Positions 14,299-31,022 of a DNA stretch of 54,347 bases are shown here, in pieces (the stretch's first letter is position 1; the number at the start of each line of letters is the position of its first letter). The translations under genes were made by a program, and so were the position numbers. Under the pieces are notes generated by a model. The model saw only the letters and a program-made list of their open reading frames with translations, was not told the origin of the DNA and did not search any database. The DNA comes from Verrucomicrobiota bacterium (GTDB taxonomy: Bacteria > Verrucomicrobiota > Verrucomicrobiia > Opitutales > Opitutaceae): contig JANYJB010000102.1 of NCBI GenBank assembly GCA_025361935.1, positions 1 to 54,347 of the forward strand, written 5' to 3'.

Positions 14299-16173
14299 AT
14301 GAACATTCCTTCGCGCTCCCGCCAGGCGGGTCGCCTTTTCCTCGCGTTCGCCCTGGTGGCGGCGCTCGTTTCCATCGCCTGCGGGCAGGTCGTGCCCTTC
14401 ATCCAGATGGAGGACTACGTCGTCACCGCCGCGCGCACTCCCCAAGATCCCGACAACGTGGCCAGCAGTGTCACGGTCATCAGTTCCGCCGAGTTGGCGG
14501 ATCACCAGATCGACAACGTCGGCGACGCCCTGCGCTCCGTGCCGGGCGTGAACGTCCTGCAAACCGGCGGGAGCGGGGGCGTGACCTATCTTTCGCTGCG
14601 CGGAGGCAAGAACTCGCAGACGCTCGTGCTCGTGGACGGCGTGCGTTTCAACGACGCCAACTCGACTTATCAAAGTTGGCTGGGCGGATTTTCGCCGAGC
14701 GCGCACGACCGCATCGAGGTGCTGCGCGGCCCGCAGAGCACGCTTTACGGCGGCGCGGCGATGGGCGGCGTGGTGTCCATTGGCCTGGAGCGCGGCGCAG
14801 GCGCGCCGTCCGGGTCGGTCGATCTTGAGGCGGGCAGTTTCAGCACGAGCCGCGGTGTCGTTTCGTCGCAGGGGGAGGTGAAGAGCTTCGCCTATTCGTT
14901 CACGGCGTCCGGTCTCGACACCGACAACGACCGGCAGAACAACAACGCGCGCCTGCAAAACTACGCGCTCCGCCTCGACTACCAAGCGACCGCGAATCTC
15001 GCGGTGGGCGGCACGGTCCGCTATCTCGACAGCTACTACAAAGACCCGAACGACATCCGCACGACCAACACCACGCCGATCAATAACAACTACCTCCAGA
15101 GCACCTTGGGAACCGTGTTTGCAGAGGTCACGCCCTCGGAGGTGTGGCGGTCGCGTGTGACGGCGGGATATCAGCGTCAGCTCTACGACAACGACGGGAG
15201 TTTCTCCGGGTTTCCCAGTCCCTACAGCACCGATACCAAGCGGGAAATTCTGGAATGGCAGAACAACCTGCGATTCACGGATGCGATCACGGCGGTGGCG
15301 GGCGCCAGTTACGAGCGCTCCGAGTTTTCAGATGGCGTGTCGTATCCCAACGACCGGTCGAAGGGCGTTTACGGCCAGGCGGAGTGGTCGCCGTTGAAAG
15401 GGCTCCGTCTCGGGGCCGGCGTGCGTTATGACGACTACGACTCGTTTGGCGGATCAAACACCTACCGCCTGACGGCGAGCGAACTCGTGGCGGCCACGGG
15501 CACACGGTTTCACGTTACCTATGGGACCAGCTTCTTGCCGCCCAGCATCACGCAGCGATATGGCTCGGCGTTTACAGCGGCGGCTCCCGGCATCCAGCCG
15601 GAGGAATCCACAGGCTGGGACGCGGGCGTCGAGCAAACGTTCATCGACAAAAAACTCACGGGCGACGTCACGTTTTTCCGCAACGACTACAAAAACCTCA
15701 TCTCCTACAAGGGCGCGATCTTCCCCGCGCTCGGTTCGTTCGTGAACATAGGCCAGGCGCGCACTCAGGGCGTGGAGACGTCGATCAAAGCGAAGTTGTC
15801 CGAGCAGGTGAGCGTCGCGGCCGCTTACACTTATCTGGAGGCGACAGACGAAGTTTCTCAGGTGCGGCTCGAGGACCGTCCGCGTCACACCTTTTCGGCT
15901 AACGTCGATTGGACGCCGGTCGAGGCGTGGCTGCTGGGCGCTGGTGTGCAGGGGGCGACGGATAGGCGGACGACGAATTTCAACACGGCGCCGTCGAGCA
16001 AAGTTGATCAGGCCGGCTACACGGTCTTTCGGCTCTACACGCGTTATCAGGCGACGAAGCAGCTCACGCTGCATGCGCGCGTGGAGAACGTGTTCGACGC
16101 GCACTACGAGGAGACCTACGGGTTTCCCTCGGCGGGCGCGGCGGTGTTTGCCGGCGCGGAGTTCAAGTTCTAG
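14299..16173 (+). CDS. btuB: TonB-dependent outer-membrane receptor, BtuB-like (cobalamin)
   Basis: 624-aa outer-membrane receptor that takes up a corrinoid with energy from TonB. Seen: signal peptide (1-29), a TonB-box-like region followed by VVTAARTP, the plug domain (SVTVISSAELADHQIDNVGDALRSVPGV ... RIEVLRGPQSTLYGG, split here by a gap), and a 22-strand-type barrel ending in Phe (AEFKF), the outer-membrane sorting signal. The length matches BtuB (about 614 aa). The cobalamin riboswitch immediately upstream and the divergent metH support a B12 substrate. No BtuFCD or TonB genes are adjacent. Confidence 0.9.
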   Translation: MNIPSRSRQAGRLFLAFALVAALVSIACGQVVPFIQMEDYVVTAARTPQDPDNVASSVTVISSAELADHQIDNVGDALRSVPGVNVLQTGGSGGVTYLSLRGGKNSQTLVLVDGVRFNDANSTYQSWLGGFSPSAHDRIEVLRGPQSTLYGGAAMGGVVSIGLERGAGAPSGSVDLEAGSFSTSRGVVSSQGEVKSFAYSFTASGLDTDNDRQNNNARLQNYALRLDYQATANLAVGGTVRYLDSYYKDPNDIRTTNTTPINNNYLQSTLGTVFAEVTPSEVWRSRVTAGYQRQLYDNDGSFSGFPSPYSTDTKREILEWQNNLRFTDAITAVAGASYERSEFSDGVSYPNDRSKGVYGQAEWSPLKGLRLGAGVRYDDYDSFGGSNTYRLTASELVAATGTRFHVTYGTSFLPPSITQRYGSAFTAAAPGIQPEESTGWDAGVEQTFIDKKLTGDVTFFRNDYKNLISYKGAIFPALGSFVNIGQARTQGVETSIKAKLSEQVSVAAAYTYLEATDEVSQVRLEDRPRHTFSANVDWTPVEAWLLGAGVQGATDRRTTNFNTAPSSKVDQAGYTVFRLYTRYQATKQLTLHARVENVFDAHYEETYGFPSAGAAVFAGAEFKF

Positions 16174-18289: not shown

Positions 18290-19966
18290 TCAGCGCTGTG
18301 CGGCCAGGTGGGCCACCCAGCCGCCGTGGGGCGTGATGTTAATCGCGTCGGCGAGGGCGGCGGGTTCGCAGAGGAAACTTTTGCTGGTTGTGCCGTCGGC
18401 GAGCGTCGCGGTGCCGATAACCATGGGGGCGGGAACGGCGGCGACGAAGCGACCGAACGCCTCTGGTGTGAGCGCGTAAGTCTCGACGGCGATGGGCGCA
18501 CCGGTCTCGCCGGGCGCGACGCGCACGAGACCGGGCTTGGGCGGAGTGGTGTTGGCCAGCGCGTAGAGGCGGTAGTCGGGCGAGGTCGTGGTGGCGGCGA
18601 GGAAGCGTGCGCCGAGGGACGTGAGTTGGTGGTGCAGCGGTTGTCCGCGCAGGTGCGCGCCGCAGACGGCGAGGCGGATGGTGTCGGCGGGCGGGACGGT
18701 AGCAGGCGAGGGTTCGCCGAGGTAGCGTGCGCCGAGAGCGAGGAGTTGCGCATCATGCCAAGCGGGGGCGATGAACGTGATGCCGAAACCGGGGCCGAAA
18801 CTGTAGCGACCGGCGGGCAGGGTGAGGCCGCACAGGTCGAGCAGGTTCATGAAATTGTTATAGCGGCCGAGATTCGAGTTGAGGCGAATCGGGTCGGCGG
18901 CGATTTCAGATATTTTGTAGATCGTGCCGGCGGTGGGGGCGACGAGGGCGTCAACGGTGGCGAGAATCTGGTCGGCAGTTCGGCGGAGTTCGACGAGGCG
19001 GTAGGTGGCGCGGAAAGCGTCGGCAGCGGAGGCATTGCGGCCGCCGAGGATGATCTTGGAGACGGTGGAATCGAGTCCGGCGGCGCGGGCGGACTCGGGC
19101 GTGGCGGAGTGTTGTTCGATGAATGCGCCGACGGCGGCGTAGCGCTCGGCGGTCCAAGGGCCTTCGTAGAGCAGGCGGGCGGCGTCGAGGAACGGGGAGA
19201 AATCGACTTCTGTAATTTTGATGCCGAGGGTGCGCAGGCGGTCGAGGGCGGCGGCGAAGAGGGCGGGGGACTCGGTGTTTCCAAACCATTCGAGTTGGTC
19301 GGCGCGGGGGACGCCGATGCGATGAGGGTCGGAAATTTTGTCACTTATTAAGTGACAAATGGGTCGGGCGCGGGAGAAGGGGTCGAGTGGGTCGAAGCCT
19401 TCGGTGACGGCGAGAACGCGGGCGGCGGTGGCGATGTCTCGGGTAAAGATCGAGACGCAGTCGAGGCTGCGGCATGCAGGGACTACGCCGCGAGTGCTCA
19501 GGCGCCCTTTGGTGGGTTTGAGGCCGATGATCTGGTTGAAAGCGGCGGGCACGCGGCCGGAGCCAGCGGTGTCGGTGCCGAGGGCGAAATCGACTTCGTT
19601 GCGGGCGACGGCAACAGCCGATCCGCTGGAGGAACCGCCGGAGATGTAGTCGGGATTAAAGACGTTGCGCGGTGCGCCGTAGGGCGAGCGGGTGCCGACG
19701 AGGCCGGTGGCGAATTGGTCGAGGTTGGTTTTGCCGACGGGCGTTGCGCCGGCGGCGAGAAGACGTGCGACGACGTGGGCGGATTCGGTCGGCGTGTAGG
19801 CGAAGGCGGGGCAGGTGGCGGTGGTGGGGACGCCGGCGAGGTCGATGTTGTCTTTGATCGCGAAGGTGAGGCCGGCGAGCGGGGCGGTGACGGTGGGCGT
19901 GGCGAAACGCGCTTGTTCGACGGCGGTGAGGCGGTGAATCCAAATCGAGGCGTCGTCGGTGCTCAT
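18290..19966 (-). CDS. atzF: Allophanate hydrolase
   Basis: Hydrolyses allophanate to two ammonia and two CO2, the last step of urea or guanidine carboxylation pathways. 558 aa, amidase-signature family: catalytic Lys38 (AIKDN), the cis-Ser region GGSSSGSA (110-117), and nucleophile Ser136 in TDTAGSGRVPA. The Arg/Val in place of the usual GGSIRIP is typical of the allophanate-specific group. The C-terminal third (GRFVAAVPAPMVIGTATLADG) is the separate domain known from AtzF-type enzymes. It starts six bases after the carboxylase stop, so it is the last gene of that operon. Confidence 0.94.
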   Translation of the reverse strand: MSTDDASIWIHRLTAVEQARFATPTVTAPLAGLTFAIKDNIDLAGVPTTATCPAFAYTPTESAHVVARLLAAGATPVGKTNLDQFATGLVGTRSPYGAPRNVFNPDYISGGSSSGSAVAVARNEVDFALGTDTAGSGRVPAAFNQIIGLKPTKGRLSTRGVVPACRSLDCVSIFTRDIATAARVLAVTEGFDPLDPFSRARPICHLISDKISDPHRIGVPRADQLEWFGNTESPALFAAALDRLRTLGIKITEVDFSPFLDAARLLYEGPWTAERYAAVGAFIEQHSATPESARAAGLDSTVSKIILGGRNASAADAFRATYRLVELRRTADQILATVDALVAPTAGTIYKISEIAADPIRLNSNLGRYNNFMNLLDLCGLTLPAGRYSFGPGFGITFIAPAWHDAQLLALGARYLGEPSPATVPPADTIRLAVCGAHLRGQPLHHQLTSLGARFLAATTTSPDYRLYALANTTPPKPGLVRVAPGETGAPIAVETYALTPEAFGRFVAAVPAPMVIGTATLADGTTSKSFLCEPAALADAINITPHGGWVAHLAAQR

Positions 19967-19972
19967 GGAGGA

Positions 19973-22900
19973 TCAGCCTTCGAGGACGACGAGGGTTTCG
20001 CCGGCGTTGACGGGGCGGCCTTCGGCGCAGCGGATTTCTCGAACCGTGCCCGCTCGGGTCGCGGAGACGGTGACTTCCATTTTCATGGATTCGAGGATGA
20101 CCAACGGTTGGCCTTCGGTGACGGTGTCGTTGGGCGACACGAGGATTTTCCAGACGTTGCCCGGGATGTGGGACGGGAGGGCGATGCAGCCTTCGGGGAT
20201 GGCGGACTCGTCGGCGGTGGCGGCGGCTTCGTCCGACGCGGAGAAGTTGAGCTGTCCGCTGTCGATCCAGCGTTGGCGCTCGGCCTCGAAGGCGGATTGC
20301 TGGTGGGTCTTGAAGGCGGTGATGGATTCGGAGTTGTCGGCGAGGAACTTTTGGTAATCGCGGAGTTTGAAGGTGGTTTCCTCGATGCGGAGTTTAACGC
20401 GGCCCTGGGGGAAGTCTTCGCGGAACTGCGTGAGCTCGGCGTTGGAGACGGGGTAGAACTTGATCTGGTCGAAGAAGCGGAGGAGCCAGGGTTTTCCGTC
20501 GGTGAAGTCGGCGGTCTGTTTGTGGCGGTTCCACATCTGGCAGGTGCGGCCGATGAACTGGTAGCCGCCTGGGCCTTCCATGCCGTAGATGCACAGGTAG
20601 GCACCGCCGATGCCGACGGCGTTTTCAGGGGTCCAGGTGCGGGCGGGGTTGTATTTGGTGGTGACGAGGCGGTGACGCGGATCGACGGGCGTGGCGACGG
20701 GTGCGCCGAGGTAAACGTCGCCGAGAGCGAGCACGAGGTAGCTCGCGTCGAAGCAGATGCGGTAAACTTCCTCGAGGTTGGGGAGGTCGTTGATGCGGCG
20801 GATAAACTCCAGGTTGCTCGGGCACCACGGGGCGTCCTTGCGGACGATCTGCATGTATTTGCGGATCGCGAGCAGGGTGGACTCGTCTTCCCAGGAGAGC
20901 GGGAGGTGGACGATGCGGGAGGGGACTTCGATGTCGTCGATGGCGGGGAGTTCGGACTCGGCGCGGAGAAGGATTTCGAGGAGGCGCTCGTAGGGGAGGA
21001 GGCGCTGGTCAAAGTGGACTTGGAGGGAGCGAATGCCGGGCGTGAGGTCGATGATGCCGTGGAGGCGGTGACGCTCGAGCCAGGTTTGCAGCGCATGGAC
21101 TCTCATGCGCATGGCGATGTCGAGTTGGAGCGGGCCGTATTCGACGAGGAGGTTTGCGTCGCCTTGGCGGCGATAGACGACGGCGGGCGCGGCGGGGCGG
21201 GCGGGTAGTTGATGAAGGATGGCGGGTTCCTGCAAAGAGTAACCTATTGGGTTACTCTTTGGTTTTGGGGCGCGCTGGAGGTTTTCGATTTCGGACTCTT
21301 GGGCGAATGCGAGTTCGCGGGCGTGTTGAGCGGTGAGGACGAAGAAGCGGACCTGGTCGCCAGGCTTGAGCTGGCCCATTTTCCAGAGATCGGCTTGCGC
21401 GATGGTGAACGGACACACGAAGCCGCCACAGCTCGGGCCGTCGGGGCCGAGGATGATGGGCATGTCACCCGTAAAATCGACGGCGCCGATGGCGTAGGCG
21501 TTGTCGTGGATGTTGGACGGATGCAGGCCGGCCTCGCCGCCGTCGCGCCGGGCCCATTCGGGTTTGGGGCCGATGAGACGCACGCCGGTGCGGGCGGAGT
21601 TGTAGTGGACTTCGTAGGACGTGGTGAGGAGGACGGAGATGTCGGCCTCGGTGAAAAAGTCGGGCGCGCCGTGGGGGCCGTAGAGGACGCCGATCTGCCA
21701 TTCGCGGGTGAGCGGGGGTTGGATGGCGGCGGGGGCGCGGAGGAGCGGGGCGGACGTGAGCACACCGGCGGGCGTGGAAGTGTGGACGCGGAGGACGTCG
21801 CCGGTGCGGAGGGCGCGGCCGGAGTGTCCGCCGAAGAGGCCGAGGGTGAAGGTGGACTTGCTGCCGAGGTAGTCGGGGACGTCGAAGCCGTGGCGGATGG
21901 CGAGGTAGGCGCGAAGGCCGGGGCCGTCGATGGAGGCGATGCGGAGGGTTTGGCCGGCGCGGACGCGGACGGCGCGGTGTTGAGCGACGGGTTTGCCGTC
22001 GAGCGTGGCGGGCATGTGCGCGCCGGTGAGCGCGACGACGACGGCGGTGTTGAAGCGGAGGGACGGGCCGTTGACGGTGAGTTCGAGGGCGGCTGCCGTG
22101 TCGGGATTTCCGACGAGGCGATTGGCGAGGCGGAAGGACAGGTTGTCCATCGGGCCGGAGGGCGGGACGCCGACATCCCAGTAGCCGATGCGGCCGGGGT
22201 AATCTTGGACGGTCGTTTGGGTGCCGCCTTCGAGGACTTCGATAGTGGAGGGGACGAAGGGGAGCGTGGAGAGATATTTGGTGGTGACGCCGCCTACGAG
22301 GAAACCGGGGCTGGCGATGATCTGGCGGAGGTAGGGGAGGTTGTTTTCGAGTCCGTAAACGCGGGTGTCGGCAAGGGCGGCGTCGAGGCGGGCGAGGGCG
22401 TCGGCGCGGTCGGTGCCGCGGACGATGATCTTGGCGATCATCGGGTCGTAGAAGGCGGAGACTTCGCTGCCGGTTTCGACCCACGTCTCGATGCGCGCGG
22501 AGGACGGAAAATGCACGTCGGTGAGGGTGCCGGCGGCGGGTTGGAAGTTTTTGCCGGCGTCTTCGGCGTAGAGACGGACCTGGATGGACGCGCCGGTGGC
22601 GGTAGGCGTGTAGGTGCGGAGGTCGAGTTCGCTGGCGGCGGCGCGGATCATCCACTCGACGAGGTCCACGCCGGTGACTTCTTCGGTGACGCCGTGTTCG
22701 ACTTGGAGGCGGGTGTTGACTTCGAGGAAGTAGAAATGGCCGGTGGCGTTGTCGTAAACGAATTCGACGGTGCCGGCGTTGGTGTATCCGGCGGCGGTGC
22801 CGAGGCGGGCGGCGCAGGCGAGGAGTTCGGCGCGTTGAGCGGCGGTGAGGCCGGGCGCGGGGGTTTCTTCGACAACCTTTTGGTTGCGACGCTGGACGGA

Positions 22901-23584
22901 GCAGTCGCGTTCGCCGAGGGCGACGACGTGGCCGTGGCTGTCGCCGAGGATCTGAACCTCGATGTGGCGGGCGTGCTCGACAAATTTTTCGAGGAAGACG
23001 CCGCCGTCTTTGAAGTTGTTTTTGGCGAGGCGGACGACCGATTCGAAGGCGGGGGCGAGTTCGGCGGGTTTGCGGATGAGGGACATGCCGATGCCGCCGC
23101 CACCGCCGGTGCTTTTGAGCATGACGGGGTAGCCGATGCGAGCGGCTTCGGACTGGGCGGTGGCGAGGTCGGGGAGGAGATCGGTGCCGGGGAGGAGGGG
23201 GACGCCGTGGGCCTTGGCGAGGGCGCGGGCGGAGTGCTTGGGGCCGAGCTGGCGCATCTGCGCGGCGCCGGGGCCGATGAAGGCGATGCCGGCGGCTTCG
23301 CAGGCTTCGACGAAGGCGGCGTTTTCGGAGAGGAAACCGTAGCCGGGGTGGATGGCCTGGGCGCCGGTTGCCTTGGCGGCGGCGAGGATTTTGTCGGCGT
23401 CGAGGTAGGACTGCGCGGCGGGGGACGGGCCGATGTGGATGGCTTCGTCGGCTTGGGAAACGTGGAGGCTGTGGCGGTCGGCGTCGGAATAGACGGCGAC
23501 GCTGGCGATGCCCATTTTACGGAGGGTGCGGATGACGCGGCAGGCGATGGCTCCGCGGTTGGCGATGAGGACTTTGGTGAACAC
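19973..23584 (-). CDS. Biotin-dependent urea or guanidine carboxylase
   Basis: 1203-aa biotin carboxylase fusion annotated in most genomes as urea carboxylase. Order: biotin carboxylase domain (1 to about 450; ANRGAIACRVIRT, ATP-binding GGGGGIGMS, ERDCSVQRRNQKVVEE, EVNTRLQVEHGVTE), the carboxyltransferase formed by the KipA-like half (GGTQTTVQDYPGRIGYWD) and the KipI-like half (YRRQGDANLLVEYG), and a C-terminal biotinyl domain with ESMKME carrying Lys1168. It carboxylates urea or, where paired with DUF1989 partners as here, guanidine. Free-standing from allophanate hydrolase, unlike the yeast fusion. It needs biotinylation by a ligase such as that at the window's right end. Confidence 0.93.
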   Translation of the reverse strand: MFTKVLIANRGAIACRVIRTLRKMGIASVAVYSDADRHSLHVSQADEAIHIGPSPAAQSYLDADKILAAAKATGAQAIHPGYGFLSENAAFVEACEAAGIAFIGPGAAQMRQLGPKHSARALAKAHGVPLLPGTDLLPDLATAQSEAARIGYPVMLKSTGGGGGIGMSLIRKPAELAPAFESVVRLAKNNFKDGGVFLEKFVEHARHIEVQILGDSHGHVVALGERDCSVQRRNQKVVEETPAPGLTAAQRAELLACAARLGTAAGYTNAGTVEFVYDNATGHFYFLEVNTRLQVEHGVTEEVTGVDLVEWMIRAAASELDLRTYTPTATGASIQVRLYAEDAGKNFQPAAGTLTDVHFPSSARIETWVETGSEVSAFYDPMIAKIIVRGTDRADALARLDAALADTRVYGLENNLPYLRQIIASPGFLVGGVTTKYLSTLPFVPSTIEVLEGGTQTTVQDYPGRIGYWDVGVPPSGPMDNLSFRLANRLVGNPDTAAALELTVNGPSLRFNTAVVVALTGAHMPATLDGKPVAQHRAVRVRAGQTLRIASIDGPGLRAYLAIRHGFDVPDYLGSKSTFTLGLFGGHSGRALRTGDVLRVHTSTPAGVLTSAPLLRAPAAIQPPLTREWQIGVLYGPHGAPDFFTEADISVLLTTSYEVHYNSARTGVRLIGPKPEWARRDGGEAGLHPSNIHDNAYAIGAVDFTGDMPIILGPDGPSCGGFVCPFTIAQADLWKMGQLKPGDQVRFFVLTAQHARELAFAQESEIENLQRAPKPKSNPIGYSLQEPAILHQLPARPAAPAVVYRRQGDANLLVEYGPLQLDIAMRMRVHALQTWLERHRLHGIIDLTPGIRSLQVHFDQRLLPYERLLEILLRAESELPAIDDIEVPSRIVHLPLSWEDESTLLAIRKYMQIVRKDAPWCPSNLEFIRRINDLPNLEEVYRICFDASYLVLALGDVYLGAPVATPVDPRHRLVTTKYNPARTWTPENAVGIGGAYLCIYGMEGPGGYQFIGRTCQMWNRHKQTADFTDGKPWLLRFFDQIKFYPVSNAELTQFREDFPQGRVKLRIEETTFKLRDYQKFLADNSESITAFKTHQQSAFEAERQRWIDSGQLNFSASDEAAATADESAIPEGCIALPSHIPGNVWKILVSPNDTVTEGQPLVILESMKMEVTVSATRAGTVREIRCAEGRPVNAGETLVVLEG

Positions 23585-23599
23585 GGCGACGGAAAGTGA

Positions 23600-24256
23600 T
23601 TAATTCCAAATAAAGACTTCGGCGGGGGTGGGGTTCCAGCCGTTGCACGGGTTGTTGAGCTGAGGACAATTCGAGATGAGGCAGACGATGTCCATGCAGG
23701 CGACCATCTCGACGTATTTGCCTGGGGATGATACGCCGTCGGCGAATTGGAGACCGCCATCCGGTGTCACAGGAACGTTCATGAAGAAGTTTATGTTGGC
23801 GGGGATGTCGCGCTTGTTGAGATCGAAGGTCGAACCGGGCCAGGTCATGAGGCCGAGGAGAAAACTCTGGCGGCAGGAGTGCATGTGGCGCGTGCCGTGG
23901 CCGTAGCGGATCGTGTTGGCCTCGCAGGAGCAGGCACCGCCGAGGGTGTCGTGGCGGCCGCAGGTGTCGGCGGTGATCTCGGCGAGGACACGGAGCTCGT
24001 TGGAGTAGAGCTTGGTGCCGGTGGTGAGATAGATGGAGCCGTTTTCGCGGATAGTGTCCTGTGCGCTGTAGCGTTCGCGGAAATCGGCGGCGGCGTAGAA
24101 CAGGGTGTCGGCTGCTTGGTTTCCCTCGAGGTCGAGAATGCGAAGCGTCTGGCCGGCCTTGATCGCGTGCATCCAAAAGTCGCCTGCGGGGATGACGTGG
24201 CGGTAGGCTGCGTCAGCGGAGGAGAGGGAAGATTCGGTGTATTTGAGCGTGCTCAT
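23600..24256 (-). CDS. DUF1989 protein (urea carboxylase-associated protein 2 / carboxyguanidine deiminase subunit)
   Basis: 218 aa, DUF1989 family. Characterised pairs of these proteins (CgdAB in Pseudomonas) form a carboxyguanidine deiminase that turns carboxyguanidine into allophanate and ammonia, linking guanidine carboxylase to allophanate hydrolase. Seen: the family core [27 protein letters not shown], the metal-site-like [11 protein letters not shown] with His and Cys, [10 protein letters not shown], and [12 protein letters not shown]. It lies six bases downstream of its larger paralogue and 15 bases upstream of the carboxylase, so all are one operon. Which paralogue is subunit A or B is not decided here. 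Confidence 0.88.
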
Positions 24257-24262
24257 GGCCGG

Positions 24263-25063
24263 TCAGAGATAAAAAAGCTCGGAGTTGTAAAGGGCGCGCT
24301 CGTTTTCGGGGCGGTAGGTGCGGCAGTAGTCGTCGGGGGAGGGAGGCGGCGTGGCGTGGAGCTGGAGTTTCACGGGCTTGGGCCCGTAGGCGGGCGACGT
24401 GTCTAGGGGATGGTGGCAGGTCGTGAGAACAATCAGGACGTCGAGTTCGGCGCGGAGATCGAGGTGATCGCCGGCGCGGGAGTGGTTGGGGACAAAAGAG
24501 AGCTGACCCTCGGAGTCGGTCGAAAGTTTGCTGAAGAAGTTAATATTGGGGACGAGGTCTCGGGCGTTGAGGCCGTGTTTGGCGAGCTCAATGAGGAAGT
24601 GGTCGCGGGAGTTACGGTGGCAGGCGTTGCGGGCGGCTTGGTAGTTGAGGACGCCCCATTTTTTGGCGACGTGGGCGGCGGTGTCGTGTCCGCCGAGCGG
24701 GTCGTGCCAGCCGAGGGTGTCGCCGGTGATCGAAAATAGGGCGCGGCCCATGTCGGAGTAGAGCATGCAGCCGGTGGTGAGCTTGGCGGTGTGCTGGCCC
24801 TTGAGCGTGTCGGCCATGTTGTAGCGGTCGATGGGTTCGGCGCGGTTGAAGCAAAGGAATGAGACGTTGGCGCCGGCTTCAGGCGCGGCGAGGCGCAGCG
24901 TGGTGTGGCGGCGGACGACGAAGGAAACGGCGGAGCCGCCGGGGACGATTTCTTCGCGCAGGAGGCGGTCGGCGGGGATGGGCGCGGGGGTGGGCGCCGG
25001 GCCGGCGGGGCGCGGAGTCGTGAAGGAGGTGCCGGTGGGCACGGGCGGAACGAGGAGCGGCAT
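24263..25063 (-). CDS. DUF1989 protein (urea carboxylase-associated protein 1 / carboxyguanidine deiminase subunit)
   Basis: 266 aa, larger DUF1989 paralogue and first gene of the second transcription unit. The ATG at 25063 (MPLLVPPVPTGT) is preferred; the frame continues upstream to 25138, but that would run through the operator. Seen: EEIVPGGSAVSFVVRRH, TGCMLYSDMGRALFSIT, DTLGWHDPLGGH (matching RHDTLGG of the partner), ACHRNSRDHFLIEL, and VPNINFFSK. A Pro/Thr-rich leader of about 30 residues precedes the core. The partner gene follows after six bases. The expected role is one half of the carboxyguanidine deiminase. Confidence 0.86.
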   Translation of the reverse strand: MPLLVPPVPTGTSFTTPRPAGPAPTPAPIPADRLLREEIVPGGSAVSFVVRRHTTLRLAAPEAGANVSFLCFNRAEPIDRYNMADTLKGQHTAKLTTGCMLYSDMGRALFSITGDTLGWHDPLGGHDTAAHVAKKWGVLNYQAARNACHRNSRDHFLIELAKHGLNARDLVPNINFFSKLSTDSEGQLSFVPNHSRAGDHLDLRAELDVLIVLTTCHHPLDTSPAYGPKPVKLQLHATPPPSPDDYCRTYRPENERALYNSELFYL

Positions 25064-25074
25064 GGCGAAAAATA

Positions 25075-25103
25075 GTGTTACGAAATGTTTAAAAAGTATT
25101 ACC
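25075..25103 (-). promoter_or_regulatory. Operator upstream of the carboxylase unit (copy 1)
   Basis: On the minus strand, GTAATAC, 14 bases, then GTAACAC: a direct repeat with 21-base periodicity (half-sites at 25096-25102 and 25075-25081). The proximal half-site ends 11 bases before the ATG at 25063. A near-identical element with identical spacing precedes the substrate-binding protein gene. The likely binder is the NikR-like regulator encoded immediately upstream. Confidence 0.65.
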
Positions 25104-25144
25104 GCAAGAATAATGCCAGCGTGTGCGAAGCGGGTCACCCGTTC

Positions 25145-25585
25145 TCAGAGCAAGGGCGGGATTGCGGTGGCAGTGAGGTTGAATTTGCCCTGCTTGACGC
25201 CCCGGCAGGTGATGAGTTCGTCGGCGAGCTGACGGAGTTTTTGGGCGGGGCCTTGGACGAGCAGAACCTCCATGTAGTTGTGGGCCTCCAAGTGAACATG
25301 CATCGAGGCGACGACCATGAGGTAGTATTTGTGCTGGATGGCGGCGAGGCGGGTCTGGAGGCCTTTTTGCTTGTGGTCGTAAACGAGGCTGATGGTGCCG
25401 GCCACAGAGGCGGTGCCGAGCTGGGTGGCGAAATCGACCAGGCCGTCGCGCGCGAGCGTGGCCACGGCTTGGGAGCGGCTGGCATAGCCCCGGCGTTTCA
25501 CCATTTCATCGAGTTCGTCGAGGAGACTTTCGGGAAGTGAAACACTGAAGCGGGCCAGACGGTCTTTTTTAGGGGAAACGGGCAT
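25145..25585 (-). CDS. NikR-like ribbon-helix-helix transcriptional regulator
   Basis: 146 aa from the ATG at 25585. The N-terminal ribbon-helix-helix (LARFSVSLPESLLDELDEMV, then RRGYASRSQAV) and the C-terminal ACT-like regulatory domain match NikR in length and layout. Of the four nickel ligands of E. coli NikR, His76, His87 and His89 are kept (His85, His96, His98 here, in QHKYY and MHVHL), but Cys95 is Tyr104; Glu97 is also kept (Glu106). It may therefore bind a different metal or a ligand such as a nitrogen compound. It is the last gene of the transporter unit and lies 81 bases before the carboxylase unit, next to one of two shared operators. Confidence 0.85.
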   Translation of the reverse strand: MPVSPKKDRLARFSVSLPESLLDELDEMVKRRGYASRSQAVATLARDGLVDFATQLGTASVAGTISLVYDHKQKGLQTRLAAIQHKYYLMVVASMHVHLEAHNYMEVLLVQGPAQKLRQLADELITCRGVKQGKFNLTATAIPPLL

Positions 25586-25596
25586 GGTCGAAGTTT

Positions 25597-25625
25597 TAAC
25601 CACAGATTACACAGATCGGCGCAGA
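25597..25625. repeat. Dispersed-repeat-like intergenic sequence
   Basis: Contains AACCACAGATTACACAGAT, with the unit CACAGAT occurring twice, in the gap between the glutamine synthetase-like gene and the regulator. Sequences of this kind recur as intergenic repeats in several environmental genomes. Only one copy is in the window, so the call rests on resemblance. Confidence 0.3.
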
Positions 25626-27031: not shown

Positions 27032-27829
27032 TCAGGAAACGGAAGCGGGGACGGAGTAAGCGTGCGGGAGAGGAGGGTTTTCGCGGAGGGCGCGGCGGAC
27101 GGTTTTGGCGAGGTCGGCGACGATCCAGCGGAAGAGGCGGTGGCCTTGGGCGGCGGTGGCGCGGGAGGGCGTGCCGGTCACGCCGTTGGCGCTGGTGCGG
27201 TTGACGGGATGGGCGAAGACGAGACCGGTGGTGCGGTCGGGGTCGTCGGAAGTGGAGAGGAGGGACGGGCGCGTGAGCTCAGGGGCGAGCGCGAGCATGA
27301 GGGCGGTCTCGGCTTGGTTGGCGTGCCAGTCGGCGGCGTCGGCGCAGAAGGCTTTTTTCACGCGGGGGCTGACTTCGGCGGTGTTGAGGACGGCGACCAT
27401 GAAGCCGTCGTGGCGGCTGCGGAGGATTTCGAGGGCGCAGCGGAGCGGGGCGGCGTTGGTGACGTGGCTGTTGACGAGAAAGAGGCGGCGAAAACCGGCG
27501 CGAAAAAGCCAGTCGCCAAGGTCGGTAACGAGGGCGATGAGGGTCTGGGGTTGGAGGGCGAGCGTGCCGGGCCAGCGGTGGGAGTGGCCGAGGGAACAGC
27601 CGTAGGAAAGTGCGGGAAGAACGGGCACGCCGGTCGCGGCGGAGACGGCGGCGCAGACGTGGGTGGCGAGCGAAGTGTCCATGCCAGTGCCGAGGTGCGG
27701 GCCGTGTTGTTCGGTCGCGCCGCAGGGGAGCATGACGGCATCCATGCCGTCGGACGGAAGCGCGGCGATCTCGGGCCAGGTTAAGCGGCTCCAGAGAACG
27801 GGGGCTTTCGATTTCTTGGCGGGCGGCAT
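27032..27829 (-). CDS. Creatininase-family amidohydrolase
   Basis: 265 aa. Metal-site motifs of the creatininase fold are present: [20 protein letters not shown] (Glu, His, Asp ligands), [10 protein letters not shown] in place of the usual NGHGGN, and [13 protein letters not shown] with the distal Glu. The family includes creatininase, several cyclic amide or formamide hydrolases, and cofactor-maturation peptidases, so the substrate is open. The position between an ABC importer and a glutamine synthetase suggests it opens or deformylates a nitrogen-rich compound brought in by the transporter. No creatinase gene is nearby, which argues against plain creatinine breakdown. Confidence 0.85.
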
Positions 27830-27880: not shown

Positions 27881-28777
27881 TTATTCCACGTCGTCGCCGA
27901 CTTGGGTGAGACGGATGATGGGCAGGTGTTCGTGAGCGTGAGCATCGACGCGCGGGTGGATGAGTTCTTCGAGGCGGCGGCGGGTGGCGAGGAACTCGGG
28001 TGAGTTCAACTGCGAGAGATTGCGCGGGCGCGGGACAGGCACCTCGATCACCTCTTGGACTTCGCCGGGGTGGGCTTTGAGGACGAGGATGCGGTCGGCG
28101 AGGAAGATAGCCTCATCGAGATCATGGGTGATGAAGAGGATGGTGACGTCCACGTTGCGCCAGATTTCGAGGAGATGGGACTGCATCTGGGCGCGGGTCT
28201 GGGCGTCGAGGGCGCCGAAGGGTTCGTCCATGAGAAGGACGCGTGGGTTGGCGGCGAGGGCGCGGGCGATAGCGGTGCGTTGCTTCATGCCGCCGGAGAG
28301 TTGCGCGGGGTAGGTATCGGCGAAGCGCGTGAGGCCGACGAGGTCGATCCACTGGCGGGCCTCGCGATCCGCCTGGCCACCGTCCATGCCCTGCATCTTG
28401 AGGCCGAACATGACGTTCTTTTTCACCGTGAGCCACGGGAAGAGGGTGTAGCCTTGGAAAACCATGCCGCGCTCGGGGCAGGGGCCGCTGGTTTCCTTGC
28501 CGTCCACGAGCATGCGGCCGGAGGTAGGTTCGTCGAGGCCGGCGATGATGCGGATGAGGGTGGACTTGCCGCACCCGGAGGGGCCGATGACGCAGACGAA
28601 TTCGCGGCGGTGGACTTTGAAGGAGATGTCGTGCAACGCCACGACGGGGCCGTGTTCGCCTGGGAACTGGCGGCCTAGGCGATCAATTTCGAGGACGACG
28701 GGGCGCTCCTTGATTTTCGCAAAGCGGGCGGCGACGGCGGGGGATTGGTCGCGGTAATCGGGAAGGGGCTCGCTCAT
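27881..28777 (-). CDS. ABC importer ATPase, nitrate/sulfonate/taurine type
   Basis: 298-aa nucleotide-binding subunit of a SsuB/TauB/NrtD-type importer. The start at 28777 ([12 protein letters not shown]) overlaps the permease stop by four bases (ATGA). Seen: Walker [11 protein letters not shown]-loop in [12 protein letters not shown], signature [15 protein letters not shown], Walker [13 protein letters not shown], and H-loop ITHDLDEA. The C-terminal 60 residues ([21 protein letters not shown], split here as [13 protein letters not shown] and IHPRVDAH) are a tail seen in this subfamily. It works with the adjacent permease and binding protein. Confidence 0.93.
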
Positions 28778-29814
28778 TGCGGGAGGAGTTGCACGGGTTT
28801 TTCGGCGGAGGCGGGACGGAGGCCGAAGAGTTTTCCGAGAAAGGCGCGGATGCGGCTGGGACGCGGATTTTTCCAGGGGAAGAGGCGGTGGCCGACGAAG
28901 GCGAGGATCTGGTCGATGGTGAGGCCGAGGATTCCGATGATGATGATGGCGGCGTAAACGTTGTCGAAATTCCGATATTTGGCCTGCTGGTTGATGAAAA
29001 AAGAAATGCCCGAGCTGACGCCGACGACCTCGGCGACTATGAGGTAGGTCCAAGCCCAGCCGAGGAGTATGCGGGTGTCGTTGTAGAGGTCGGGCAGGCT
29101 GGCAGGGACGATGACGCGCAGGACGAGCTGGCGACGTTTGGAACCGAGGGTTTGAGCGGCCTCGATGAGGGCGCAATCCACTTTGCGGACGGTGTTGGCG
29201 ACGACGAGGACCTGCTGGAAAAAGGTGCCGATGACGATGATGGCGATCTTGGGTTCGAGTTGAATGCCGAAGATGGCGACCATGAGCGCGCCGAACGCGG
29301 GGGCCGGCATGTAACGGACGAAATCGACGAACGGCTCGGTGAGGCGCGAGATCGCGATGAAGGAGCCGCAGAGAATGCCGAGCGGAATGCCAACGACGGA
29401 CGAAATCGTGAAGCCCCAGAAGATCGTCTGGATACTCATCCAGAGGCTTTGGTGGAGCCAGAGGTCACCCTTCAGGACGGGCGCGGTGGTGAAGGCGGTA
29501 TAGAGCGAGCGGATGACGGCGTGGGGAGCGGGAAAATAAATGGGGTTGGCGCGAAATCCTACGGGAGCGTGCGTGTGGGCGAGCTGGGCGGTGGCGACTT
29601 CCTTGTCGAAGTCGTGGCGATTGATGAGCAGGCCGGCGCGCATCCAGTCCACGTCTCCGGGGGCGGTCACCTTGACCATCGGGTGCCAGAGCCAGGGTAT
29701 GTAGCTGAACAGGCTCCACAACGCCAGCGGCAGCATGAAAGCGAGCACGCCGAGAAAGCGGCTGCGCTTGGGTGTGAGCTCTTGGCGGACGGAGAACCAG
29801 CGTGGTCGGGACAT
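28774..29814 (-). CDS. ABC importer permease, nitrate/sulfonate/taurine type
   Basis: 346 aa from the ATG at 29814 ([11 protein letters not shown]). It has one N-terminal membrane helix ([20 protein letters not shown]), a periplasmic stretch of about 110 residues, and then the SsuC/TauC-type domain with helices around [17 protein letters not shown] and [13 protein letters not shown]. The cytoplasmic EAA-like loop [21 protein letters not shown], given here as EAAQTLGS with [10 protein letters not shown], contacts the ATPase. The long extra periplasmic segment before the core is unusual for the family. It overlaps the ATPase gene by four bases. Confidence 0.9.
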
Positions 29815-29901: not shown

Positions 29902-30885
29902 TTATTTCTTCAACGCGTCAACAGTGAGGGAAGCGTCGAGGTAGCCGCCCACGTCCTGAGACTCTTTATAGACGCCGTTTTTCACGTTGAACTCGTTGGC
30001 GATCTTGGAGGAGCCGATGACGGAATCGAGACCGTCGGTTTTCGTGGTCAGGACCTTGGCACCTTCTTCGAGGGTGAGCAGGCGGGTGCCGGGCATAAAC
30101 GCGGCGTATTCCTTCGGGTCCACGCCGGCGCGGGCGGCCATGATCTTGATGCCGTCTTCGCGGGTCTTCGGATCGGCGAGGTAGGCGACGATTTTGTCCC
30201 ACACTTTGACGACCTTCAACCACTCGGCGCGGTGCTGGGCGAGGCTTTGGGGTGTGACTACGATGGCGTCGTAGATAAGACCGGGAGCGTCGGCGCTGGT
30301 GTAAACGGGCTTGGAGCCGGGGACGGCCTTGAGGGCGGCGCCGCAGTTGGGCTGCCAGGCACCGATGGCGTCAACCTGACCGGAGGCGAGCACCTGCGGG
30401 GTCTGGTTGGTGGGCGTGGGGACAAGGGTGACGTCGGATTCGGTCAGGCCGGCTTTCTTGAGGCCGTTGAGGAGGAGAAGGTGTTCGACGAAGCCGATCT
30501 CGATGCCGACTTTTTTGCCCTTCAGATCCTTGAGGGATTTGATGCCGGGCTGGCCGACGATCATGTCGTTGCCGTTGGAGTAATCGGTGATGAGGACGGC
30601 GATGTTCTTGGCGCCGCCGGCACCGGTGACGAGGGCGTCGCCGTTGGTGACGGTCACGGCGTCGCATTTGCCGGCGGTGAAGGCCTCCATGGAGGGACCA
30701 TATTCGAACCAGAGGAGATCGACATCGACGCCGGCTTCCTTGAACCAGCCTTTCTGGGCGGCAATTTCGAGAGCGGTCCAGCCGGGCCAGTCGGAAAAGG
30801 CAATTTTAAGCGGGGCGGCGGAGACGGTGGCAGTGGCAGAGGCGGCGGCGACCGCGAGAAGGGCAATCAGGTTACGTAGGCGCAT
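29902..30885 (-). CDS. ABC importer substrate-binding protein (SsuA/TauA/NMT1-like)
   Basis: 327-aa exported binding protein, start at 30885 ([10 protein letters not shown]), with signal peptide ([20 protein letters not shown]). Type II periplasmic-binding fold of the nitrate/sulfonate/taurine kind: [68 protein letters not shown], and [13 protein letters not shown]. Homologues adjacent to guanidine- or urea-utilisation genes are thought to bind the nitrogen compound. It is the first gene of the transporter unit and is preceded by the shared operator. Confidence 0.9.
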
Positions 30886-30896
30886 GGTGAAGGTTA

Positions 30897-30925
30897 GTGT
30901 TACGATTATGGTAAAAAGTGTTACC
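30897..30925 (-). promoter_or_regulatory. Operator upstream of the transporter unit (copy 2)
   Basis: On the minus strand, GTAACAC, 14 bases, GTAACAC (half-sites 30918-30924 and 30897-30903), also containing GGTAA-N6-TTACC. The centre includes CATAAT, which could serve as a -10 box. The proximal half-site ends 11 bases before the ATG at 30885, exactly as in copy 1 at 25075-25103. Confidence 0.65.
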
Positions 30926-31022
30926 AACTTCGTTTTAGCACAACGCGTGCCCACGCCTGTTGTGGACGAAATTTATCTGGAAATGAGCGGTTCCCCCATG
31001 CGCCGCACGCAGATCGGGCAAT

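Follow-up and report, generated by a model that had tools for sequence, protein, structure and literature searches.

The NikR-like protein encoded in this window, by which we mean the whole 54,347-nucleotide stretch of DNA analysed here, is likely a repressor of guanidine assimilation that derives from NikR, has given up nickel as its signal and acts at two repeats, one on either side of its gene. Both repeats would be operators of this protein, and the units repressed from them would be an importer/accessory/regulator unit and a guanidine-carboxylase unit. As an operator, the repeat belongs to a type already described, and the attribution of operator and regulator to each other is well supported by the sequence. 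As far as the literature was searched, this regulator branch and its target appear to be new. The relatives of the protein form a coherent NikR branch in the phylum that kept the operator, lost the metal site and is linked almost exclusively to one metabolic operon.

The two repeats were located by motif scan on the minus strand. One, GTAACAC-N14-GTAACAC (30897 to 30924), lies before the gene of the ABC transporter substrate-binding protein (SBP) and ends 11 bases from the ATG at 30885. The other, GTAATAC-N14-GTAACAC (25075 to 25102), with a 21-bp register that is conserved in relatives, lies 5.8 kb away before the first DUF1989 gene and ends 11 bases from the ATG at 25063. In both operators the half-site pairs are exact. 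These positions agree with an earlier note on this DNA, which had described a paired GTAAYAC-N14-GTAACAC, 11 bases from the ATG, at two starts 5.8 kb apart. The near-identity of the two sites that it also claimed stood for the operators as a whole (21 of 28 bases), but to extend it to much of the spacer was generous (8 of 14 positions; the stretch to the ATG agrees at 7 of 11). The equal 11-bp distance to the ATG was rejected as a functional feature, because it is not conserved: the distances differ in L005, L006 and L032, the three other loci with listed sites at both the SBP gene and the first DUF1989 gene.

With three mismatches allowed, two matches in the window are unremarkable (shuffle mean 1.26; at least two in 35 of 100 shuffles), and lone half-sites GTRNTAC were not enriched (5 observed vs 7.6 expected). 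For the exact pattern GTAAYAC-N14-GTAACAC, a Markov estimate gave 1e-5 for the window and 5e-4 for the genome, based on window composition and on a pattern derived from the two sites themselves. A genome-wide motif search, which the earlier note had named as a check, was made with GTRNYAC-N14-GTRNYAC; this pattern matched at the two operon starts and nowhere else in the 2.48 Mb source genome (88% complete, 115 contigs), and the same pattern reversed as a control gave 11 matches. Wide use of the motif across this genome was thus rejected, and the proposal of a two-unit regulon in this genome was supported. When 19 genomes were searched, at least one match was found in 16, below the backward control in each genome, and many of the matches were located outside the operon. 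In genome G114, a third operator-like site (L095:4448-4475; C1:3613447-3613474) was seen before a membrane-protein-like gene without an NCBIfam match and urtA, the latter a urea ABC transporter gene by TIGR03407; the regulon may therefore include urea uptake in G114.

The operator resembles the site derived for delta-proteobacterial NikR, GTGTTAC-[N13/14]-GTAACAC, of which inverted and everted forms are given in the sections of PMC545781 used here. The window operators have this GTGTTAC half-site, as its reverse complement GTAACAC, and an N14 spacer that falls within the 13/14-bp range, and they are accompanied by the same type of protein, a ribbon-helix-helix (RHH) domain joined to NikR_C. 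The two systems differ in three respects: the window sites are direct repeats of pseudo-palindromic half-sites instead of inverted or everted ones, they stand before predicted guanidine carboxylase genes instead of nickel transport genes, and the window regulator is without the nickel cysteine (PMC545781).

The operon consists of ten consecutive minus-strand genes. The importer is encoded by three of them: the SBP (29902 to 30885; SsuA/uca-type, below NCBIfam cut-offs), a permease (28774 to 29814) and an ATPase (27881 to 28777). They are followed by a creatininase-family hydrolase (27032 to 27829), a type III glutamate-ammonia ligase family protein (TIGR03105; 25638 to 27002) and the NikR-like regulator (25145 to 25603; start codon uncertain). 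The second operator is internal to the gene run, before the first DUF1989 gene. Beyond it come two DUF1989 proteins, UAAP1 (24263 to 25063) and UAAP2 (23600 to 24256), the predicted subunits of a carboxyguanidine deiminase, then a urea/guanidine carboxylase (19973 to 23584) and an allophanate hydrolase (18290 to 19966). In profile searches, TIGR03425, TIGR03424, TIGR02712 and TIGR02713 were over the NCBIfam cut-off for the UAAP1/UAAP2 pair, the carboxylase and the allophanate hydrolase. Provided that this division into two units is right, the regulator gene comes last in the first of them and would be autoregulated. Downstream of the operon, a TonB-dependent receptor gene was seen on the opposite strand at 14299-16173.

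The carboxylase suggested guanidine as the substrate. Its Asp703 aligns with an asparagine of the K. lactis urea amidolyase, in the column that we take to be decisive between guanidine and urea, and aspartate was found there in all 43 carboxylases readable in related loci. In the text of PMC12186494 drawn on here, an active-site aspartate marks guanidine enzymes and an asparagine urea enzymes. Based on this residue and the pathway gene set, we named the operon a predicted guanidine-assimilation operon, encoding a predicted guanidine-carboxylase pathway. It shares the ABC importer, the paired deiminase subunits, a carboxylase with the active-site aspartate and the allophanate hydrolase with the riboswitch-controlled guanidine carboxylase operons described in the available parts of PMC12186494 and PMC12508155. 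Where those operons have a guanidine riboswitch, the window operon has the NikR-like operator and predicted sigma-54 promoters.

No guanidine riboswitch was found in the window between 14000 and 36000 or in 24 fetched loci, and none of class I in 45 genomes, in a search whose filters can lose weak matches; classes other than class I were searched outside the phylum loci L129-L248. Control of the operon by a guanidine riboswitch was rejected for the searched regions. Matches to Thr_leader and STnc370 near 34 kb were dismissed, since they do not reach the gathering score and lie at a distance from the operon. Matches to Rfam 5_ureB_sRNA in L009, L044 and L045 suggest that a urease gene lies no more than about 5 kb from the operon or the regulator. 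No description of NikR-like regulation of a guanidine or urea carboxylase was found among the titles and abstract starts listed from an open-licence library, and the portion of PMC2667541 consulted describes no link of NikR to guanidine carboxylase genes.

The regulator matched both NikR domains (PF08753, 101 bits; PF01402, 32 bits). It was over the cut-off for NF003381, NF002169 and NF002815, and below it for TIGR02793 and NF001884. The NikR proteins of E. coli and H. pylori, as covered in the passages used of PMC9860126 and PMC4486848, are nickel-dependent regulators with a His3Cys site, and share with the window protein the domain architecture and a matching C-domain. Their nickel ligands (H. 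pylori numbering) are His99, His101, Cys107 and His88' according to PMC9860126. The corresponding residues of the window protein are His, His, Tyr and His, with a tyrosine in place of Cys107; its operon also differs from theirs. An AlphaFold model (mean pLDDT 77; below 50 in the N-terminal strand region) confirmed the predicted NikR C-domain fold, with about 1.0 angstrom rmsd to NikR C-domains over about 79 columns.

To place the protein among its relatives, NikR_C homologues were collected from the phylum (134 of 387 genomes positive), from an order sample (19 of 132) and from seven named contigs. Among the 146 copies classified by their ligand positions, 90 were HHHC and 56 were not, and carboxylase-pathway genes were present in the fetched stretch of none of the 90 vs 49 of the 56. 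All but two of these 56, including the window regulator, formed one tree group with an SH-aLRT of 99, in a quick unrooted tree made after removal of the four ligand columns, with SH-aLRT support only and no bootstrap; the two others, L138 and L248, were placed among canonical NikRs. In the group of 54, the nickel cysteine occurred in no row. Three ligand histidines were retained in 14 members, two in eight, one in 25 and none in seven, and in members close to the window protein three of the four nickel ligands remain. The pathway genes accompanied 49 of the 54. The five without them were two with an in-frame stop (L033, L047), two at contig ends (L038, L046) and L004, in which the regulator stands with transport genes and carboxylase genes are absent within 10 kb. 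Even among the seven members without any ligand histidine, six retained the operon link.

These comparisons indicate that the branch has lost part or all of the nickel-holding site. The DNA-strand residues Arg15, Ser17 and Ser19 were kept, with threonine in about a fifth of rows at both serines. The regulator would descend from a nickel NikR, with the DNA-reading strand and the operator kept and the His3Cys site lost. Residues that mark the group are Glu103 (0.96 of rows), Gln114 (1.00) and Pro146; Glu103 and Gln114 are candidate ligand contacts. A second divergent NikR group was also noticed, L248:7988-8464 with L255-L260 (genus code g112), in which the nickel ligands are replaced by NRTS, DRAS or DRLS; near the L248 copy there was a GTATTAC-N13-GTAATAC site but no guanidine-carboxylase genes.

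Because the nickel ligands were lost while the operon link was kept, the signal of the regulator is probably not nickel, and automatic labels such as 'nickel-responsive regulator' are probably wrong for this branch. Most plausibly, the signal would be a compound of the guanidine or urea pathway. Guanidine is attractive, since the operons lack the riboswitches that serve elsewhere and since the authors of PMC12186494, in the part of their paper used here, knew of no guanidine-binding regulator. We suggest tentatively that the group might be a protein-based guanidine sensor, in which the NikR effector fold was recruited for guanidine (or carboxyguanidine or allophanate) rather than nickel. If so, the group would play in this phylum the part that guanidine riboswitches play elsewhere, with the ancestral nickel operator kept. 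The branch offers a candidate guanidine-sensing transcription factor that can be put to the test; a 2025 review names factors of this kind as still to be found. Urea-related signals are possible as well, given the third site ahead of the membrane-protein-like gene and urtA in G114 and the ureB-type matches close to the operon in L009, L044 and L045.

The loss of the cysteine could also be read as a changed metal site rather than a lost one. Nickel or another metal on a His3Tyr site would then repress the nickel-independent guanidine/urea carboxylase route while urease is usable. Three histidines are indeed kept in the window protein, and members near the window could bind a metal. Urease is present in the source genome, in three loci the ureB-type matches are only a few kb away from the operon, and the third site in G114 precedes the membrane-protein-like gene and urtA; a precedent would be the NikR repression of a nickel-independent hydrogenase predicted in the section of PMC545781 used here. 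However, the cysteine is gone in 54 of 54 members, the operon link outlasted even the histidines in six of seven cases, and the carboxylase aspartate predicts guanidine rather than urea. We consider a retained metal sensor unlikely.

A predicted sigma-54 promoter was found beside each operator on the minus strand. Before the DUF1989 gene, the -24/-12 element TGGCATTATTCTTGCG (25103 to 25118) adjoins the operator, which begins 1 nt past the -12 GC and is immediately preceded by TGGCATTATTCTTGC. Before the importer, the operator begins 13 nt past the -12 GC of GGGCACGCGTTGTGCT (30937 to 30952). In both window elements, the GG at -24 and the GC at -12 are separated by 10 bp. Within the window alone, sigma-54-like elements are not uncommon and numbered 6 vs 4.3 expected in the loose form and 3 vs 0.6 in a stricter form. 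The source genome has a sigma-54 gene. Among related loci, a sigma-54-like match with a score of at least 8 was found in 37 of 44 importer (SBP) regions vs 13 of 186 controls, and at only 12 of 49 DUF1989 genes.

The position of the operator relative to these elements was similar across loci. At most promoters where both were found, it lay within about 20 bp downstream of the -12 element. In six DUF1989 promoters (window, L003, L006, L008, L009 and L032), it begins 1 nt past the -12 GC, and at importer promoters other than those of divergent loci the distance is 2-19 nt; in L035 and L037, where the scripted match overlapped the promoter, the offset of 5 nt is a manual reading. The bound regulator would cover the start region of the sigma-54 promoter and block transcription. 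Expression of the operon would then need a sigma-54 activator, perhaps one responsive to nitrogen limitation, together with release of the repressor.

An operator upstream of a sigma-54 element could instead serve activation, and the regulator might activate, or both activate and repress according to operator position. In the divergent nikR/SBP loci L041-L043, L046 and L048, the operator is upstream of the SBP promoter and begins 65-67 bp from its -12 element; in G114, by manual count, a possible sigma-54 site of the urtA unit follows about 100 bp downstream of the operator start. The divergent-locus operators, however, are also about 50 bp upstream of nikR, which fits autoregulation, and at the other promoters where both were found the operator begins 1-19 nt past the -12 GC, on the expected start site or shortly beyond it. 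Activation therefore seems rather improbable to us, and repression remains the preferred reading.

The spacing of the half-sites was scanned in 145 regions upstream of importer, regulator and first DUF1989 genes from 52 loci of the regulator group. For GTANTAC-type half-sites, 53 matches in 35 loci had the 21-bp register, and each other spacing from 14 to 29 gave at most 5. After the E. coli-type half-site GTATGA/TCATAC had been added post hoc, upon inspection of loci without the first type, 76 matches were found at 21 bp in 49 of the 52 loci, and the next-best spacing gave 16. These are raw, non-independent counts: many loci are close relatives, sites between divergent genes were counted from both sides, and some matches overlap promoter elements (e.g. 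L035, L037, L234, L240). Perfect sites gave 45 matches in 37 of 52 loci at 21 bp and at most 2 at any other spacing between 14 and 29, and their reversed control gave none at 21 bp. In the three loci outside the 49, a perfect site had been found earlier in L009, a weaker site is present in L044, and L243 has none by the rule. Perfect 21-bp pairs also occurred within 1.5 kb of 10 of the 90 canonical NikR genes of the phylum (20-bp pairs in 5), several of them as GTGTTAC-N14-GTAACAC.

Orientation varied while the register was fixed. The pairs at 21 bp comprised 47 symmetric (PP), 7 inverted (FR), 3 + 2 direct (RR and FF), 1 everted (RF) and 16 mixed. L238, L239 and L240, all group members, carry exact E. 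coli NikR-type sites GTATGA-N16-TCATAC, suggesting that the half-site type changed within the group at a constant register. Such an operator may thus be defined by its 21-bp register rather than by half-site orientation. GTANTAC is itself a 7-bp pseudo-palindrome, so each half-site could suit a two-fold symmetric ribbon-helix-helix dimer. A tetramer would set one such dimer on each sub-site, the two sub-sites being on the same face of the helix and separated by two turns (21 bp). Geobacter uraniireducens NikR, which is said to be a nickel regulator, reportedly has a direct-repeat operator of GTGTTAC with N14 allowed; direct GTGTTAC-type repeats with N14 would then be common to both.

The earlier note had taken the direct repeat as a sign of a different binding arrangement. 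In favour of such a geometry, direct GTANCAC/GTANCAC repeats, read in the orientation of the gene, account for 7 of 46 sites (unique per locus), and GTANTAC/GTANCAC pairs for another nine. Over 45 distinct sites, however, direct and inverted readings match equally well (5.5 vs 5.4 of 7), so that direct orientation is not in itself evidence for a new arrangement, and the sites of relatives include inverted, everted and symmetric ones without a change of register. We rejected a new geometry; that direct orientation is essential is very unlikely.

The operator, the regulator and the operon also occurred together. In the order sample, UAAP2 was over the cut-off in 17 of 132 genomes (18 at E 0.001), 16 of the 17 with the regulator; G041 has the operon without it. 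Three genomes there have the regulator only; in two of them it is interrupted by an in-frame stop, and in the third there is a contig end. In the phylum, comparison of the separate NikR_C and UAAP2 searches showed a NikR_C homologue in 38 of 45 UAAP2 genomes and none in seven (G041, G132, G139, G140, G194, G209, G229). None of the seven regulator-less operons showed a 21-bp site in the stretches scanned before its importer and first DUF1989 genes, with six SBP regions readable and the start of the first DUF1989 gene uncertain in L249, L251 and L253; L254 had one unrelated-looking 23-bp match over promoter elements. A TGGCA-type sigma-54-like element was seen by eye at all six readable importer promoters of these operons. 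G102 and G032, in which UAAP2 is absent and the regulator is interrupted by a stop, had no strict motif matches, and G070, with the regulator and an intact operon, had no GTRNYAC-N14-GTRNYAC match and a weaker site only.

The joint absence of operator and regulator in seven operons, together with the published NikR half-site, upheld the earlier link of the shared operator to the NikR-like gene. That another factor binds the repeat, with the NikR-like gene a mere neighbour, is hardly credible: nothing speaks for it directly beyond the separate activator that sigma-54 promoters need, and against it stand the half-site given for NikR in the section of PMC545781 used here, the joint absence with sigma-54-like elements kept in the six readable cases, and the lack of strict matches in G102 and G032, although G070 with its intact operon has none either. 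In the operons without a NikR-like gene in L249-L254 (genus codes g104/g116), three UAAP2 matches were observed per genome.
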